DNA from: Nonomuraea typhae
Lineage (GTDB): Bacteria; Actinomycetota; Actinomycetes; Streptosporangiales; Streptosporangiaceae
NCBI RefSeq assembly: GCF_009760925.1
Contig: NZ_VRLV01000006.1
Coordinates: 248,001 to 312,000, forward strand
Length of the DNA stretch: 64,000 bases
Direction: 5' to 3'
Shown here: positions 3,120 to 6,728 of the stretch, piece after piece
Position numbering within the stretch: the first letter of the stretch is position 1
Layout of the letters: each line of letters starts with the position of its first letter
Program-made: the position numbers and the translations under genes
The notes under the pieces: generated by a model
The model's input: the letters and a program-made list of their open reading frames with translations, nothing else
What the model was told of the DNA's origin: nothing
Database searches by the model: none

Positions 3120-3935
3120 ATGAACCTGTCCGTACTCGCCGCTGCCCTCATGACGGCGGCCGCGGTCGCCTCGCCGGCGGAGGCGGGCACGACGGCGCCG
3201 CCGGTGAGCATGGAACTCGCGGTCAAGGCGGCGCAGATCGATCCGAGGCGCTCGGACACCACCCTGACGCCAGGCGCCAAGGCCGGCGTGTTGCTCGTCG
3301 AGCGGGCGTTGCGCGACGAGGGGCTGCTGGACGGCAGGTGGGTGGACGGGTACTTCGGCACCACGACGGTGGCGGCCTACACGAGGTTCCAGCGGTCGCT
3401 GGGATTCACGGGGGCGGCAGCCAACGGCCTGCCCGGTAAGGCGTCGCTGCGGCGGCTGGGCGCGGGGCGGTTCAGCGTGACCGGCCTCGTCGAGGCGGGC
3501 GCGCGGACGTCGTACGCGGGCGGGGTGGTCAACCGCCGGACCAGAGACATGCTGGCCGAGGCACGGCGGTCGCTGGGGCGTGAGCTCGTGCTGGAGCAGG
3601 GGTCGTACAACCCGGGGGGCGATCCCACGTCGGCGGGCACACACGACGGCGGCGGCGTGGTCGATGTGTCGGTGAAGGGGATGGATGCCGCCACCCGTAC
3701 CGAGCTGGTCCGGGTGTTGCGCCACGTGGGGTTCGCCGCGTGGCTGCGTGGTCCCCGGCAGGGCGACTGGCCGTGGCACGTCCACGCCGTCGCCATCAGC
3801 GATCCGGATCTGTCCGTGCCGGCCCAGAACCAGGTCGGTGACTACTACCTGGGCCGGGACGGGCTCTCGGGGCGCGGGCCCGACGACGGTCCGAAGGTGA
3901 CCGTCCGCACCTGGGAGGAGTACCAGCGCCGCTGA
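3120..3935 (+). CDS. Secreted peptidoglycan-binding protein with M15-like peptidase domain
   Basis: A 271-residue exported protein. A signal peptide occupies residues 1-22 (MNLSVLAAALMTAAAVASPA, cleavage near AEA). Residues 40-115 resemble a PG_binding_1 domain (YFGTTTVAAYTRFQ). The C-terminal half carries the M15/VanX-type zinc signature: S171-x-x-H175 ... D182 in SAGTHDGGGVVDV and H220-V-H222 in WPWHVHAV. It is therefore probably a D-Ala-D-Ala type carboxypeptidase or endopeptidase acting on the cell wall. The start was chosen for the GGGAG upstream and the signal peptide. It lies 29 bp before two further wall-active secreted proteins on the same strand, so a shared transcript is likely. 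Confidence 0.78.
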   Translation: MNLSVLAAALMTAAAVASPAEAGTTAPPVSMELAVKAAQIDPRRSDTTLTPGAKAGVLLVERALRDEGLLDGRWVDGYFGTTTVAAYTRFQRSLGFTGAAANGLPGKASLRRLGAGRFSVTGLVEAGARTSYAGGVVNRRTRDMLAEARRSLGRELVLEQGSYNPGGDPTSAGTHDGGGVVDVSVKGMDAATRTELVRVLRHVGFAAWLRGPRQGDWPWHVHAVAISDPDLSVPAQNQVGDYYLGRDGLSGRGPDDGPKVTVRTWEEYQRR

Positions 3936-3954
3936 CTCCTCCGAACACACCAAA

Positions 3955-4363
3955 GGAGACGAACATGAGCATGTCCAGAAGGATCTTGGCCGGGGCGAGC
4001 GTGGTGCTGGCGCTGGGCGCGATGGTGGTGGCGGCTTCGCCGGCGGTCGCGGGTGGCCGGGACGGTGTCTGTGACGACGGTGAGTTCTGTTACTACTTCA
4101 ACAGCGGCAATCAGGGGTCGGTGTCGGACTTCGCGGGGTCGGTCAGCAACTACGCGAGCACGCAGCCGTCGTGTTACGACTTCAAGGGTCCGGGCGCGGG
4201 TCAGGGCACGTGCGTCAAGAACGCGGCGGCGTCGGTGTGGAACCGGAGCCGGCAGGTGGTCCGGGTGTTCTACAACAGCGGTCATGCCGGTACGCACCAG
4301 GACTTCGGCCCCGGGGTCAAGGGCAACCTGATACCCGCGCTCAAGAACCAGAACGCCTCACAC
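3955..4363 (+). repeat. Direct repeat copy 1: I36-domain cassette
   Basis: A 409-bp segment repeated 917 bp downstream with no gaps and only three base differences, all in the first 21 bases of the coding part. It spans the ribosome binding site, the signal peptide and the whole I36-type domain, and similarity stops abruptly inside the codons following NASH. Synonymous sites are identical too, so the copies are either a very recent duplication or maintained by gene conversion. Confidence 0.97.
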
Positions 4364-4858
4364 GAGTTCAACCCGGGGGCCACGCCCGCCCGCGGCCGGA
4401 TGTCGTACGCGTTGTACGCCGCTCACGGCTCGATCAGCTGCCCGTTCGACGGCTACACCACCAGGCCGGGCAGCAGGCACGAGGGCATCGACCTGGTTCG
4501 CCGGCTGGGCGCCGAGGTGCGCTCGCTGGTGGACGGGGAGATCGTCAACGTCCAGCGTGGCCGTACCGGATCGGGCGGGTTGTCCACGATCGCCATCTAC
4601 GTCGCCGCGGCGAACAAGACGGTGATCTACCTGCACTCGAGTCCGTCGCCGTCGCTGCGGGCGGGCCAGCGGGTGAGCCGCGGTCAGATCATCGCGACCG
4701 AGTCCTGGCGCGGGGTGGGCGAGTCCTCGTCGGCGCACACCCACGTCGAGATGCGGCCCGGACGGCATCTGCGCGCGGCCAAGAGCATCGGTGACCGGAA
4801 CCTTGAGAACCCGGACCCCACCTCGTTCTGGAACTCCCAGGGCTACCAGGTCCGCTGA
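3965..4858 (+). CDS. Secreted I36-type domain protein fused to M23 (LytM-like) peptidase domain
   Basis: A 297-residue exported protein. Residues 1-30 are a signal peptide ending SPAVAG. Residues 31-133 form a four-cysteine domain resembling the peptidase inhibitor I36 family (GVCDDGEFCYYFNSG; cysteines 36, 42, 70, 83). Residues about 145-290 are an M23 metallopeptidase domain with H172-x-x-x-D176 (RHEGIDL) and H258-x-H260 (AHTHVEM), so it should cut peptidoglycan cross-bridges or stems if the zinc site is intact. The I36 cassette is almost base-identical to that of the next gene, only 23 bp downstream. The domain may act as a wall-targeting or inhibitory propeptide module; that role is inference. 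Confidence 0.85.
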   Translation: MSMSRRILAGASVVLALGAMVVAASPAVAGGRDGVCDDGEFCYYFNSGNQGSVSDFAGSVSNYASTQPSCYDFKGPGAGQGTCVKNAAASVWNRSRQVVRVFYNSGHAGTHQDFGPGVKGNLIPALKNQNASHEFNPGATPARGRMSYALYAAHGSISCPFDGYTTRPGSRHEGIDLVRRLGAEVRSLVDGEIVNVQRGRTGSGGLSTIAIYVAAANKTVIYLHSSPSPSLRAGQRVSRGQIIATESWRGVGESSSAHTHVEMRPGRHLRAAKSIGDRNLENPDPTSFWNSQGYQVR

Positions 4859-4871
4859 AGCCCGGAAGAAC

Positions 4872-5280
4872 GGAGACGAACATGGGCAAGTCCAGAAGGA
4901 TCCTGGCCGGGGCGAGCGTGGTGCTGGCGCTGGGCGCGATGGTGGTGGCGGCTTCGCCGGCGGTCGCGGGTGGCCGGGACGGTGTCTGTGACGACGGTGA
5001 GTTCTGTTACTACTTCAACAGCGGCAATCAGGGGTCGGTGTCGGACTTCGCGGGGTCGGTCAGCAACTACGCGAGCACGCAGCCGTCGTGTTACGACTTC
5101 AAGGGTCCGGGCGCGGGTCAGGGCACGTGCGTCAAGAACGCGGCGGCGTCGGTGTGGAACCGGAGCCGGCAGGTGGTCCGGGTGTTCTACAACAGCGGTC
5201 ATGCCGGTACGCACCAGGACTTCGGCCCCGGGGTCAAGGGCAACCTGATACCCGCGCTCAAGAACCAGAACGCCTCACAC
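4872..5280 (+). repeat. Direct repeat copy 2: I36-domain cassette
   Basis: The second copy of the 409-bp cassette, starting at the identical ribosome binding site (GGAGACGAAC). It differs from copy 1 by three bases near the start codon, giving MGKS instead of MSMS and one synonymous change. The sequences downstream encode unrelated domains. Confidence 0.97.
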
Positions 5281-5808
5281 CGGTTCCAGGGCACGGGAAC
5301 GCCGACGGGCTGCAAGACCGACGGCACCGACACCCGGATGCCCACGACGATCCTGGTGTACCTGCGCGCCAGGAACGAGGTGGTGCGGGTGGGATTCAAG
5401 GACTACGTCAAGAACGTCCTGCCCAACGAGTGGATGGCGCACTGGCCGGAGGAGTCGCTCAGGGCGGGGGCGGTGGCCGCCAAGAACTTCGGCTGGTACT
5501 GGGCGCTGCACTCCAACAAGAAGAAGAACGGCATGTGCTACGACGTTGAGGACAACACCAACAGCCAGGTCTACAGGCCGGGCTCGGCCAGGGCGAGCAC
5601 GAACGCCGCGGTCGACGCGACGTGGGGCGATCGCCTCACGCGCGGCGGAAGGATCTTCAACGCCCAGTACTGCCGGACGCACACGGAATGCGGTCACTGG
5701 CGGGACGGCGCCTGGATGTCGCAGATGGGCTCACGCGACATGGCCAACCAGGGGCGTACCTACCGGGAGATCCTCGCGCGCTATTACAAGGGCGTCGTTC
5801 TCCAGTAG
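4882..5808 (+). CDS. Secreted I36-type domain protein fused to SpoIID/LytB-like domain
   Basis: A 308-residue exported protein with the same signal peptide and I36-type domain (residues 1-133) as its upstream neighbour. From about residue 155 it has a SpoIID-like domain (VGFKDYVKNVLPNEW then EESLRAGAVAAKNFGWY). SpoIID proteins are lytic transglycosylases acting on denuded glycan strands; E183 in LPNEW occupies the place of the catalytic glutamate. Extra cysteines (219, 264, 270) suggest disulfides. Here the domain serves a non-sporulation-specific wall function, probably growth or differentiation related. It is followed by a strong inverted repeat terminator. Confidence 0.84.
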   Translation: MGKSRRILAGASVVLALGAMVVAASPAVAGGRDGVCDDGEFCYYFNSGNQGSVSDFAGSVSNYASTQPSCYDFKGPGAGQGTCVKNAAASVWNRSRQVVRVFYNSGHAGTHQDFGPGVKGNLIPALKNQNASHRFQGTGTPTGCKTDGTDTRMPTTILVYLRARNEVVRVGFKDYVKNVLPNEWMAHWPEESLRAGAVAAKNFGWYWALHSNKKKNGMCYDVEDNTNSQVYRPGSARASTNAAVDATWGDRLTRGGRIFNAQYCRTHTECGHWRDGAWMSQMGSRDMANQGRTYREILARYYKGVVLQ

Positions 5809-5843: not shown

Positions 5844-6728
5844 TCACCATGCGTTGACGATGATCTGGAAGTTGATGGGTCGGCTCCCGGGGAACAGGAC
5901 CGCTCCGGAGGCGTCCACCATCTTGAAGCGCACGTAGCACAGGCCGGGCTTGCCGGGCGTGGTGACGTCGGTGCGGATGTCGACCAGTTCGCCGGGCCCG
6001 GTGTCGGCGATGGGCACGTCCTCGGCGGTCCGGCACTGGTCGGGGTGTTGCGGGAGGTCGAGGCGGCGCAGTTTGTACCCCTTCCAGGGCAGCGCACCGG
6101 CGTTCTTGATCCGCCAGACCTTGGTCATGGTCTGGCCGGGGCCGACGTGGGTGCAGTCGCTCAGGGTGACGTCCTCGACGAACTCGGTGGCGTCACCCTT
6201 GCGTAAGGGCGGCGCCGAGGGCGGGTTGCTGGGCCGTACCGGACAGACGACGGGGGTGGGCGCGGCGGCGCCGGGCGAGAGGCCGGACGACGTCTGGGCG
6301 GGGCCGGTGCCGCGGTCGGTGAGGACCGCGACGAGGACGGCGGCGCCCGCGACCAGGGCCAGTGCCGCCGCGACGAGGACCGGCCGCCTGCCGCGGGCGG
6401 CCGGGGCGGCGTCCTCGACCGGGGCAGGCTCCTCGACCGGGGGAGGCTCCTCGACAGGGCGGTCCGCCGAACGGACCGCCCGGCTGGCACTCTCCCAGCG
6501 TTCGCGGTACGCGGCCGGGTCACCCCCGCACGCCTTGACGAACTCGACGGTGGTTTCCCAACTCGGCAGCCGGTTGCCCTTCGCCGCCTCGTGCAACGTC
6601 GTGTGCGAGATCGCCTTCGACCGGCCCGACATTTCGCGGAAGGACGGGTTTCCGGCTTCACCGCGTAGTTGACGCAGGGCAGCGGCGAAGTCCTCGATGG
6701 CCGCGATACGTGCACGATTGTCGTCCAC
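5844..6728 (-). CDS. XRE-type HTH, transmembrane, NBR1-Ig-like domain protein
   Basis: A 294-residue protein in three parts. Residues 1-75 resemble the actinomycete XRE-like helix-turn-helix module (FAAALRQLRGEAGNPSFREM, then SHTTLHEAAKGNRLPSWETT). A Pro/Glu-rich linker and one membrane segment follow (about 113-138, PVLVAAALALVAGAAVLVAV). The outside part, about 185-294, is an Ig-like domain of the NBR1 type (GQTMTKVWRIKNAGALPW, Trp and Asn-x-Gly landmarks). The layout implies a membrane-tethered DNA-binding or adaptor protein that senses something outside the cell. Function is unknown; the eukaryote-like Ig fold is known from bacterial surface proteins. Confidence 0.8.
   Translation of the reverse strand: MDDNRARIAAIEDFAAALRQLRGEAGNPSFREMSGRSKAISHTTLHEAAKGNRLPSWETTVEFVKACGGDPAAYRERWESASRAVRSADRPVEEPPPVEEPAPVEDAAPAARGRRPVLVAAALALVAGAAVLVAVLTDRGTGPAQTSSGLSPGAAAPTPVVCPVRPSNPPSAPPLRKGDATEFVEDVTLSDCTHVGPGQTMTKVWRIKNAGALPWKGYKLRRLDLPQHPDQCRTAEDVPIADTGPGELVDIRTDVTTPGKPGLCYVRFKMVDASGAVLFPGSRPINFQIIVNAW

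Follow-up and report, generated by a model that had tools for sequence, protein, structure and literature searches.

Adjacent genes for predicted wall hydrolases carry I36 domains that appear to evolve in concert in Nonomuraea typhae and related actinomycetes

A stretch of 64,000 nucleotides from Nonomuraea typhae (contig NZ_VRLV01000006.1, positions 248,001 to 312,000; hereafter the window) contains a cluster of three genes for putative secreted enzymes of the cell wall: an M15-like protein, a protein in which an I36 domain precedes an M23 endopeptidase domain (I36-M23) and a protein in which an almost identical I36 domain precedes a SpoIID domain (I36-SpoIID). Comparison with related genomes shows concerted evolution of the two I36 domains in most of the genomes compared, as repeated gene conversion would produce, and a normal orthologous descent of the catalytic domains. 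We are fairly confident of the overall reading, namely a three-gene cluster of wall enzymes in which the I36 module is kept alike by local conversion and probably targets the enzymes to the wall.

The two genes share a cassette of 409 bp, composed of the ribosome binding site (RBS), the signal peptide and the I36 domain, that is repeated at an offset of 917 bp with only three mismatches (3968, 3972 and 3986), all of them in the first 32 bp, the remaining 377 bp being identical. Residues 2 and 3 are altered by two of these mismatches (S to G, M to K); the one that remains (TTG/CTG) is silent. The identity ends at 4364/5281, and the abrupt switch to M23 and SpoIID domains, described by an earlier sequence-only reading of this DNA, was confirmed by sequence comparison and Pfam. 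The two I36 domains of the window have an identity of 0.994 with no differences at 53 four-fold degenerate sites, whereas the most similar M23-side copy of any other genome has an identity of 0.798 and differs at 20 of 41 such sites. The cassette count by BLASTN, suggested in the same reading as a check, found it only twice in the host genome (11.39 Mb, a draft assembly of 54 contigs), the sole extra match being 31 bp long. An I36 module of this kind was likewise found only twice in that genome (E up to 0.01), together with three distant matches to the general I36 family elsewhere.

The wider comparison covered 123 loci (window included), 83 of which have a complete pair; once identical SpoIID sequences were merged, 68 non-redundant genomes remained. 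The remaining loci were set aside because the module was truncated or interrupted by a gap (e.g. L077, L078, L082, L164), the contig ended, the second gene was disrupted (L079), the partners were different or only one gene was present. The order M15-like, I36-M23, I36-SpoIID is found in 67 of these 68 genomes, and the suggestion that the M15-like gene belongs to a cluster of wall enzymes is thereby upheld. The exception (L134) has an extra intervening I36 gene whose partner matches NLPC_P60 with 18.3 bits, below the cut-off of 23.

Within a genome, the two I36 domains (about 312 nt) show a median identity of 0.946, reaching 0.97 or more in 25 genomes. In a tree of the 136 I36 copies, the two copies of one genome are sister tips in 45 of the 68 genomes and not in the other 23; 1000 shuffles of the labels gave a mean of 0.66 such pairs and never more than 5. 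In 43 genomes each of the two copies is nearest to the other. Forcing all M23-side copies into one clade was rejected (p-AU 5e-35), in a rapid tree search that left one group of identical rows unconstrained, so that the size of the likelihood gap is not to be taken literally. The median difference at four-fold sites is 0.118 within genomes (46 equal-length pairs) versus 0.324 between them (1183 equal-length comparisons). The test based on the longest identical run is uninformative, presumably because of the clustering of conserved sites: it gave p<0.05 in 19 of 57 genomes, including six of nine Micromonospora without ongoing homogenisation. GC-biased conversion was also considered and rejected: the G+C content at third codon positions (GC3) of the I36 domains is not raised (medians 0.942 and 0.933 versus 0.952 and 0.957 in the catalytic domains), nor is it higher in strongly converting genomes (0.933 and 0.923 versus 0.943 and 0.933).

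This homogenisation is tied to proximity rather than to genome or partner, because nearly all adjacent pairs exceed the same-partner pairs of other clusters. Eight genomes have three or more modules, six of which were compared, all from the family (G702 and G709, with cut modules, were left out); this set overlaps the 68, since L225, L221 and L227 are probably L096, L113 and L094. Eleven of the 12 adjacent pairs have identities of 0.89-0.96, the remaining one being 0.778, whereas all 15 same-partner comparisons between different clusters lie at 0.75-0.85; different-partner comparisons between clusters reach 0.907. Two of these genomes (G695 and G691; L221-L226, L236, L237) carry seven modules each, arranged as three two-gene clusters and one gene, and one cluster in each has a CHAP-like gene, judged by eye, in the usual M23 position.

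Other pairs show several degrees of likeness. In Nakamurella, an adjacent I36-M23 gene of another type and an I36-NlpC-like gene (NLPC_P60 at 19.3 bits, sub-threshold) have an identity of 0.994 and no differences at 49 four-fold sites. Intermediate values of 0.89-0.92 were found in L123, L129, L130, L131, L132 and L137, and diverged ones in L159 (0.79) and among the three genes of L134 (0.85-0.86). In nine Micromonospora genomes the own pair has an identity of 0.81-0.86 and the nearest M23-side copy of another genome one of 0.97-0.98, a pattern indicating that these pairs have escaped homogenisation. Tandem I36 modules inside single proteins, found in eight Promicromonospora/Myceligenerans proteins, are not homogenised either (0.76-0.87).

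The unit kept alike is mainly the I36 domain, because the identity medians of the 68 genomes fall outside it: they are 0.93-0.97 in six I36 blocks, 0.77 and 0.71 in the two adjoining 35-bp blocks before the domain, 0.34 in the block 70-105 bp upstream and 0.40 downstream. The modular delivery cassette proposed from the window is thus retained as a modular I36 unit, and the idea of RBS, signal peptide and I36 travelling as one unit is not. The window is unusual in that near-identity extends through the signal peptide to the RBS; its value of 0.89 in the block 70-105 bp upstream is the highest of the 68, the next being those of Micromonospora (0.69-0.83). The M23 gene is the likelier donor and the SpoIID gene the likelier recipient of the copying, a direction modestly supported by the signal peptides of the window, which somewhat more often resemble the M23-gene type: copy 1 is nearer to that type in 10 and copy 2 in 8 of 13 same-genus genomes, and in 47 and 45, respectively, of all 67 genomes. 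The controls were assigned correctly (13/13 and 13/13).

The assignment of the domains rests on profiles, motifs and models. Inhibitor_I36 (PF03995) is recognised by Pfam in the two proteins, scoring 38.6 and 39.8 bits against a cut-off of 21.1; Peptidase_M23 reaches 39.4 bits in the first protein, where 28.7 are required, and SpoIID 51.9 bits in the second, where 23 are required. Structure models of the mature proteins are good for the catalytic domains and poor for I36. The M23 fold is supported by the model and by HEGID-type, YLH and HTH motifs, which we take to be those of the metal ligands, in 68/68 genomes. The profile match, the fold and a conserved Glu place the second enzyme in the SpoIID/LytB family, the Glu of its PNEW motif being presumably the conserved Glu of that family; the catalytic motifs are intact in all 68 genomes. 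As regards the upstream gene, the sole basis for calling it M15-like is an H-x6-D...H-x-H pattern that we take as the M15 motif and whose residues are invariant in 19/19 aligned relatives. Its only Pfam match, PG_binding_1, scores 19.9 bits (below the cut-off of 23), no M15 match was found in Pfam, and a profile search of PDB sequences found nothing; a sequence search of the PDB gave only a muramoyl-pentapeptide carboxypeptidase at E 0.65, aligned with residues 74-113, which lie ahead of the H...D stretch.

The module bears the name of an inhibitor family. Of the two roles raised in the sequence-only reading, targeting to the wall is more probable than an inhibitory action on the enzyme that follows, because the module precedes varied hydrolases and sometimes occurs in three copies. 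Six kinds of hydrolase recognised by Pfam stand behind it: M23, SpoIID, CHAP, NlpC/P60, GH25 and phage-lysozyme. Twenty of the 30 module open reading frames without an M23 or SpoIID match were scanned with Pfam: the above-cut-off partner is a peptidoglycan hydrolase in 12/12 cases, 3/20 have a sub-threshold NlpC/P60 match only and 5/20 no partner match. Three I36 modules in a row are found in the eight single proteins mentioned above (L138, L141, L142, L143, L147, L148, L149, L154), and NlpC/P60 was confirmed by Pfam in L138 and L141, the two tripled proteins that were scanned. The module is perhaps crystallin-like: the fold search with the poor I36 model listed only weak crystallin rows and nothing closer.

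Two other functions have been weighed. According to the first, the module is a true peptidase inhibitor that shields the secreted enzymes from foreign proteases, as its membership of Inhibitor_I36 and its four cysteines, invariant in 22/22 module sequences, would allow; the variety of partners would also agree with it, since a shield need not depend on the enzyme that it protects. However, every partner above the cut-off, in the window and elsewhere, is a peptidoglycan hydrolase, and the triplication resembles multivalent binding; we regard this explanation as unlikely, with some residual weight. The second, put forward in the sequence-only reading, is a pro-inhibitor that holds the attached M23 enzyme inactive until removed. 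The family name, the N-terminal position and the fact that M23 is a metallopeptidase speak for it. This proposal is strongly disfavoured because a near-identical module in the same genome precedes SpoIID and related ones, which can be tripled, precede CHAP, NlpC/P60 and GH25, enzymes of unrelated chemistry that share no active site with M23.

The likeness of the copies could also be an artefact of assembly, in which the repeat collapsed to one consensus. The host genome is a draft, and several relatives show N gaps in the repeat (G040:C26, L077; G052:C21, L078) or matches that begin where a contig ends (G203:C15, G248:C161). Nevertheless, the window copies retain their three differences, divergent copies are resolved in other genomes, and the six one-contig genomes among the 68 show I36 identities of 0.94-1.00 (0.997, 0.990, 0.990, 0.981, 0.946 and 0.939), so that a collapse is a very improbable source of the pattern. 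Because of the gaps and contig ends at the repeat, draft genomes may contain more near-identical pairs than were counted.

One of the two origins considered in the sequence-only reading, the other being ongoing conversion, is a recent duplication; here it would mean that a gene of this lineage was copied in tandem and that one of the copies then received a different C-terminal domain. Identical cassettes within this genome would fit it, but both architectures are old and syntenic across the family and beyond; the shared order excludes separate duplications, since a duplication plus a domain swap would be required in each lineage. Conversion is therefore retained and recent duplication given hardly any credence. 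Of 54 genomes of the genus searched, 19 have a match, 17 carrying the locus and two showing weak matches only; the 17 loci comprise 14 complete pairs, two with N gaps at the repeat (G040, G052) and one whose second gene is broken (G026). The SpoIID protein was matched, in some cases weakly, in 63 of 250 genomes of the family sample, and the module was found in 76 of 297 genomes of the order sample; in the phylum sample it was present in 2 of 396, of which one is the genome of the window itself. Genomes with the locus include Actinomadura, Microbispora, Acrocarpospora, Spongiactinospora and Micromonospora. As for purifying selection together with codon bias, the high conservation of the module and its high GC3 would agree with it, but it can practically be discarded as the only cause, since the two copies of a single Micromonospora genome differ, in all nine cases, at 12-17 of 38-42 four-fold sites and the window copy differs from those of other genomes at a median of 0.625 of these sites.

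Two further observations concern the history of single loci. In Actinomadura geliboluensis (L118, coverage 5.8) the M15-like gene is followed directly by I36-SpoIID, the M23 gene being missing, an arrangement that a deletion between the repeats would produce, as would a collapse in the assembly. The locus of the window (3120-5808) is distant from its genus-mates, its catalytic domains having at most 77% DNA identity to any genome of the set; its I36 domain is nearest to another genus of the family and has a GC3 of 0.87, versus a median of 0.94. Hence, the locus may stem from a donor that does not belong to the genus.

The features are listed in Table 1. The three genes are separated by 29 bp (M15-like/I36-M23) and 23 bp (I36-M23/I36-SpoIID). 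A protein on the opposite (-) strand (5844-6728) matches N_BRCA1_IG with 43.4 bits (cut-off 28) and, weakly, HTH_31 with 22.8 bits (cut-off 27). A riboswitch was sought with Rfam, which gave nothing between positions 2700 and 6000 of the window at E up to 5; at the gathering score no riboswitch was found in eight relatives either.

Table 1. Features of the three-gene cluster (window positions)
Feature	Position	Strand	Remark
M15-like, PG-binding-domain-like protein, first in cluster	3120..3935	+	Start codon uncertain; open reading frame listed from 3081
Cassette copy 1 (RBS, signal peptide, I36; 409 bp, near-identical)	3955..4363	+	
I36-M23 protein, 297 aa, signal-peptide-like start	3965..4858	+	
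Perfectly identical tract, 377 bp	3987..4363	+	Partner 4904-5280
I36 module, copy 1, 104 codons	4058..4369	+	
M23 endopeptidase domain	4475..4762	+	Pfam, residues 171-266
Cassette copy 2, 409 bp	4872..5280	+	
I36-SpoIID protein, 308 aa, signal-peptide-like start	4882..5808	+	
I36 module, copy 2	4975..5286	+	
SpoIID domain with PNEW motif	5374..5640	+	Glu codon 5428-5430

Taken as a mechanism, the cluster would encode a secreted M15-like peptidase, an M23 endopeptidase and a SpoIID-type lytic transglycosylase, and gene conversion, recurring between the direct repeats at a distance of some 0.9 kb, would keep the I36 copies alike, the homogenised stretch taking in also the signal peptide and the RBS in this genome. 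The I36 module would bring peptide cutters (M15-like, M23) and a glycan cutter (SpoIID) to the same place on the wall; the probable purpose is secreted lysis or remodelling of the wall, depending on the niche. More tentatively, each cluster could have its own I36 type as a shared address label, updated on both enzymes by local conversion in order to track a changing wall target, and the module could also be a recombination handle for swapping catalytic domains, since sister clusters have M23, CHAP, NlpC/P60 and SpoIID joined to a single kind of module; we consider this conceivable, yet rather doubtful.

The locus provides a natural experiment, in which one domain is homogenised between adjacent genes while unrelated catalytic domains serve as internal clocks. 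With converting lineages, escaped lineages and multi-cluster genomes at hand, it can be asked if conversion is tolerated or selected for a common target. Besides, what is annotated as a peptidase inhibitor may in fact serve to target secreted lytic enzymes to the wall, in which case annotations would change, and repeats of this kind can break draft assemblies.

No account of I36-bearing wall hydrolases or of this homogenised pair was found among the papers listed by the searches made, which were restricted to open-licence literature, so that the absence is weak. The module resembles the Inhibitor_I36 family, whose type member we take to be SMPI of Streptomyces, in its Pfam match above the cut-off and its four invariant cysteines, and differs in being, as predicted here, a module of multidomain wall hydrolases. 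Compared with the SpoIID/LytB lytic transglycosylases (5i1t, 4rwr, SleC 9h68), the SpoIID domain stands here behind I36 and beside M23 and M15-like genes. Regarding the process, 26 prokaryotic genes under concerted evolution (tuf, psbA, amo and others) have been compiled, in which, as here, paralogues are closer within than between genomes, judged together with synteny; the two tables of that work list no wall hydrolase (PMC6053082). TLR1 and TLR6 of mammals are tandem paralogues with one region converted independently in each species while the rest of the gene diverges, but they are receptors and their diverging parts are still homologous (PMC2077338). In the polyketide synthase (PKS) and non-ribosomal peptide synthetase (NRPS) clusters, domains are homogenised within one cluster by internal recombination, and its cycle of homogenisation and escape fits the converting Nonomuraea and Microbispora and the escaped Micromonospora; there, however, the units are modules of one assembly line, whereas here one accessory domain is carried by two enzymes with unrelated catalytic domains (PMC4256081). 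Homogenisation of domains is thus a known process; the papers listed gave no instance of it in an accessory domain common to wall hydrolases with unrelated catalytic domains.
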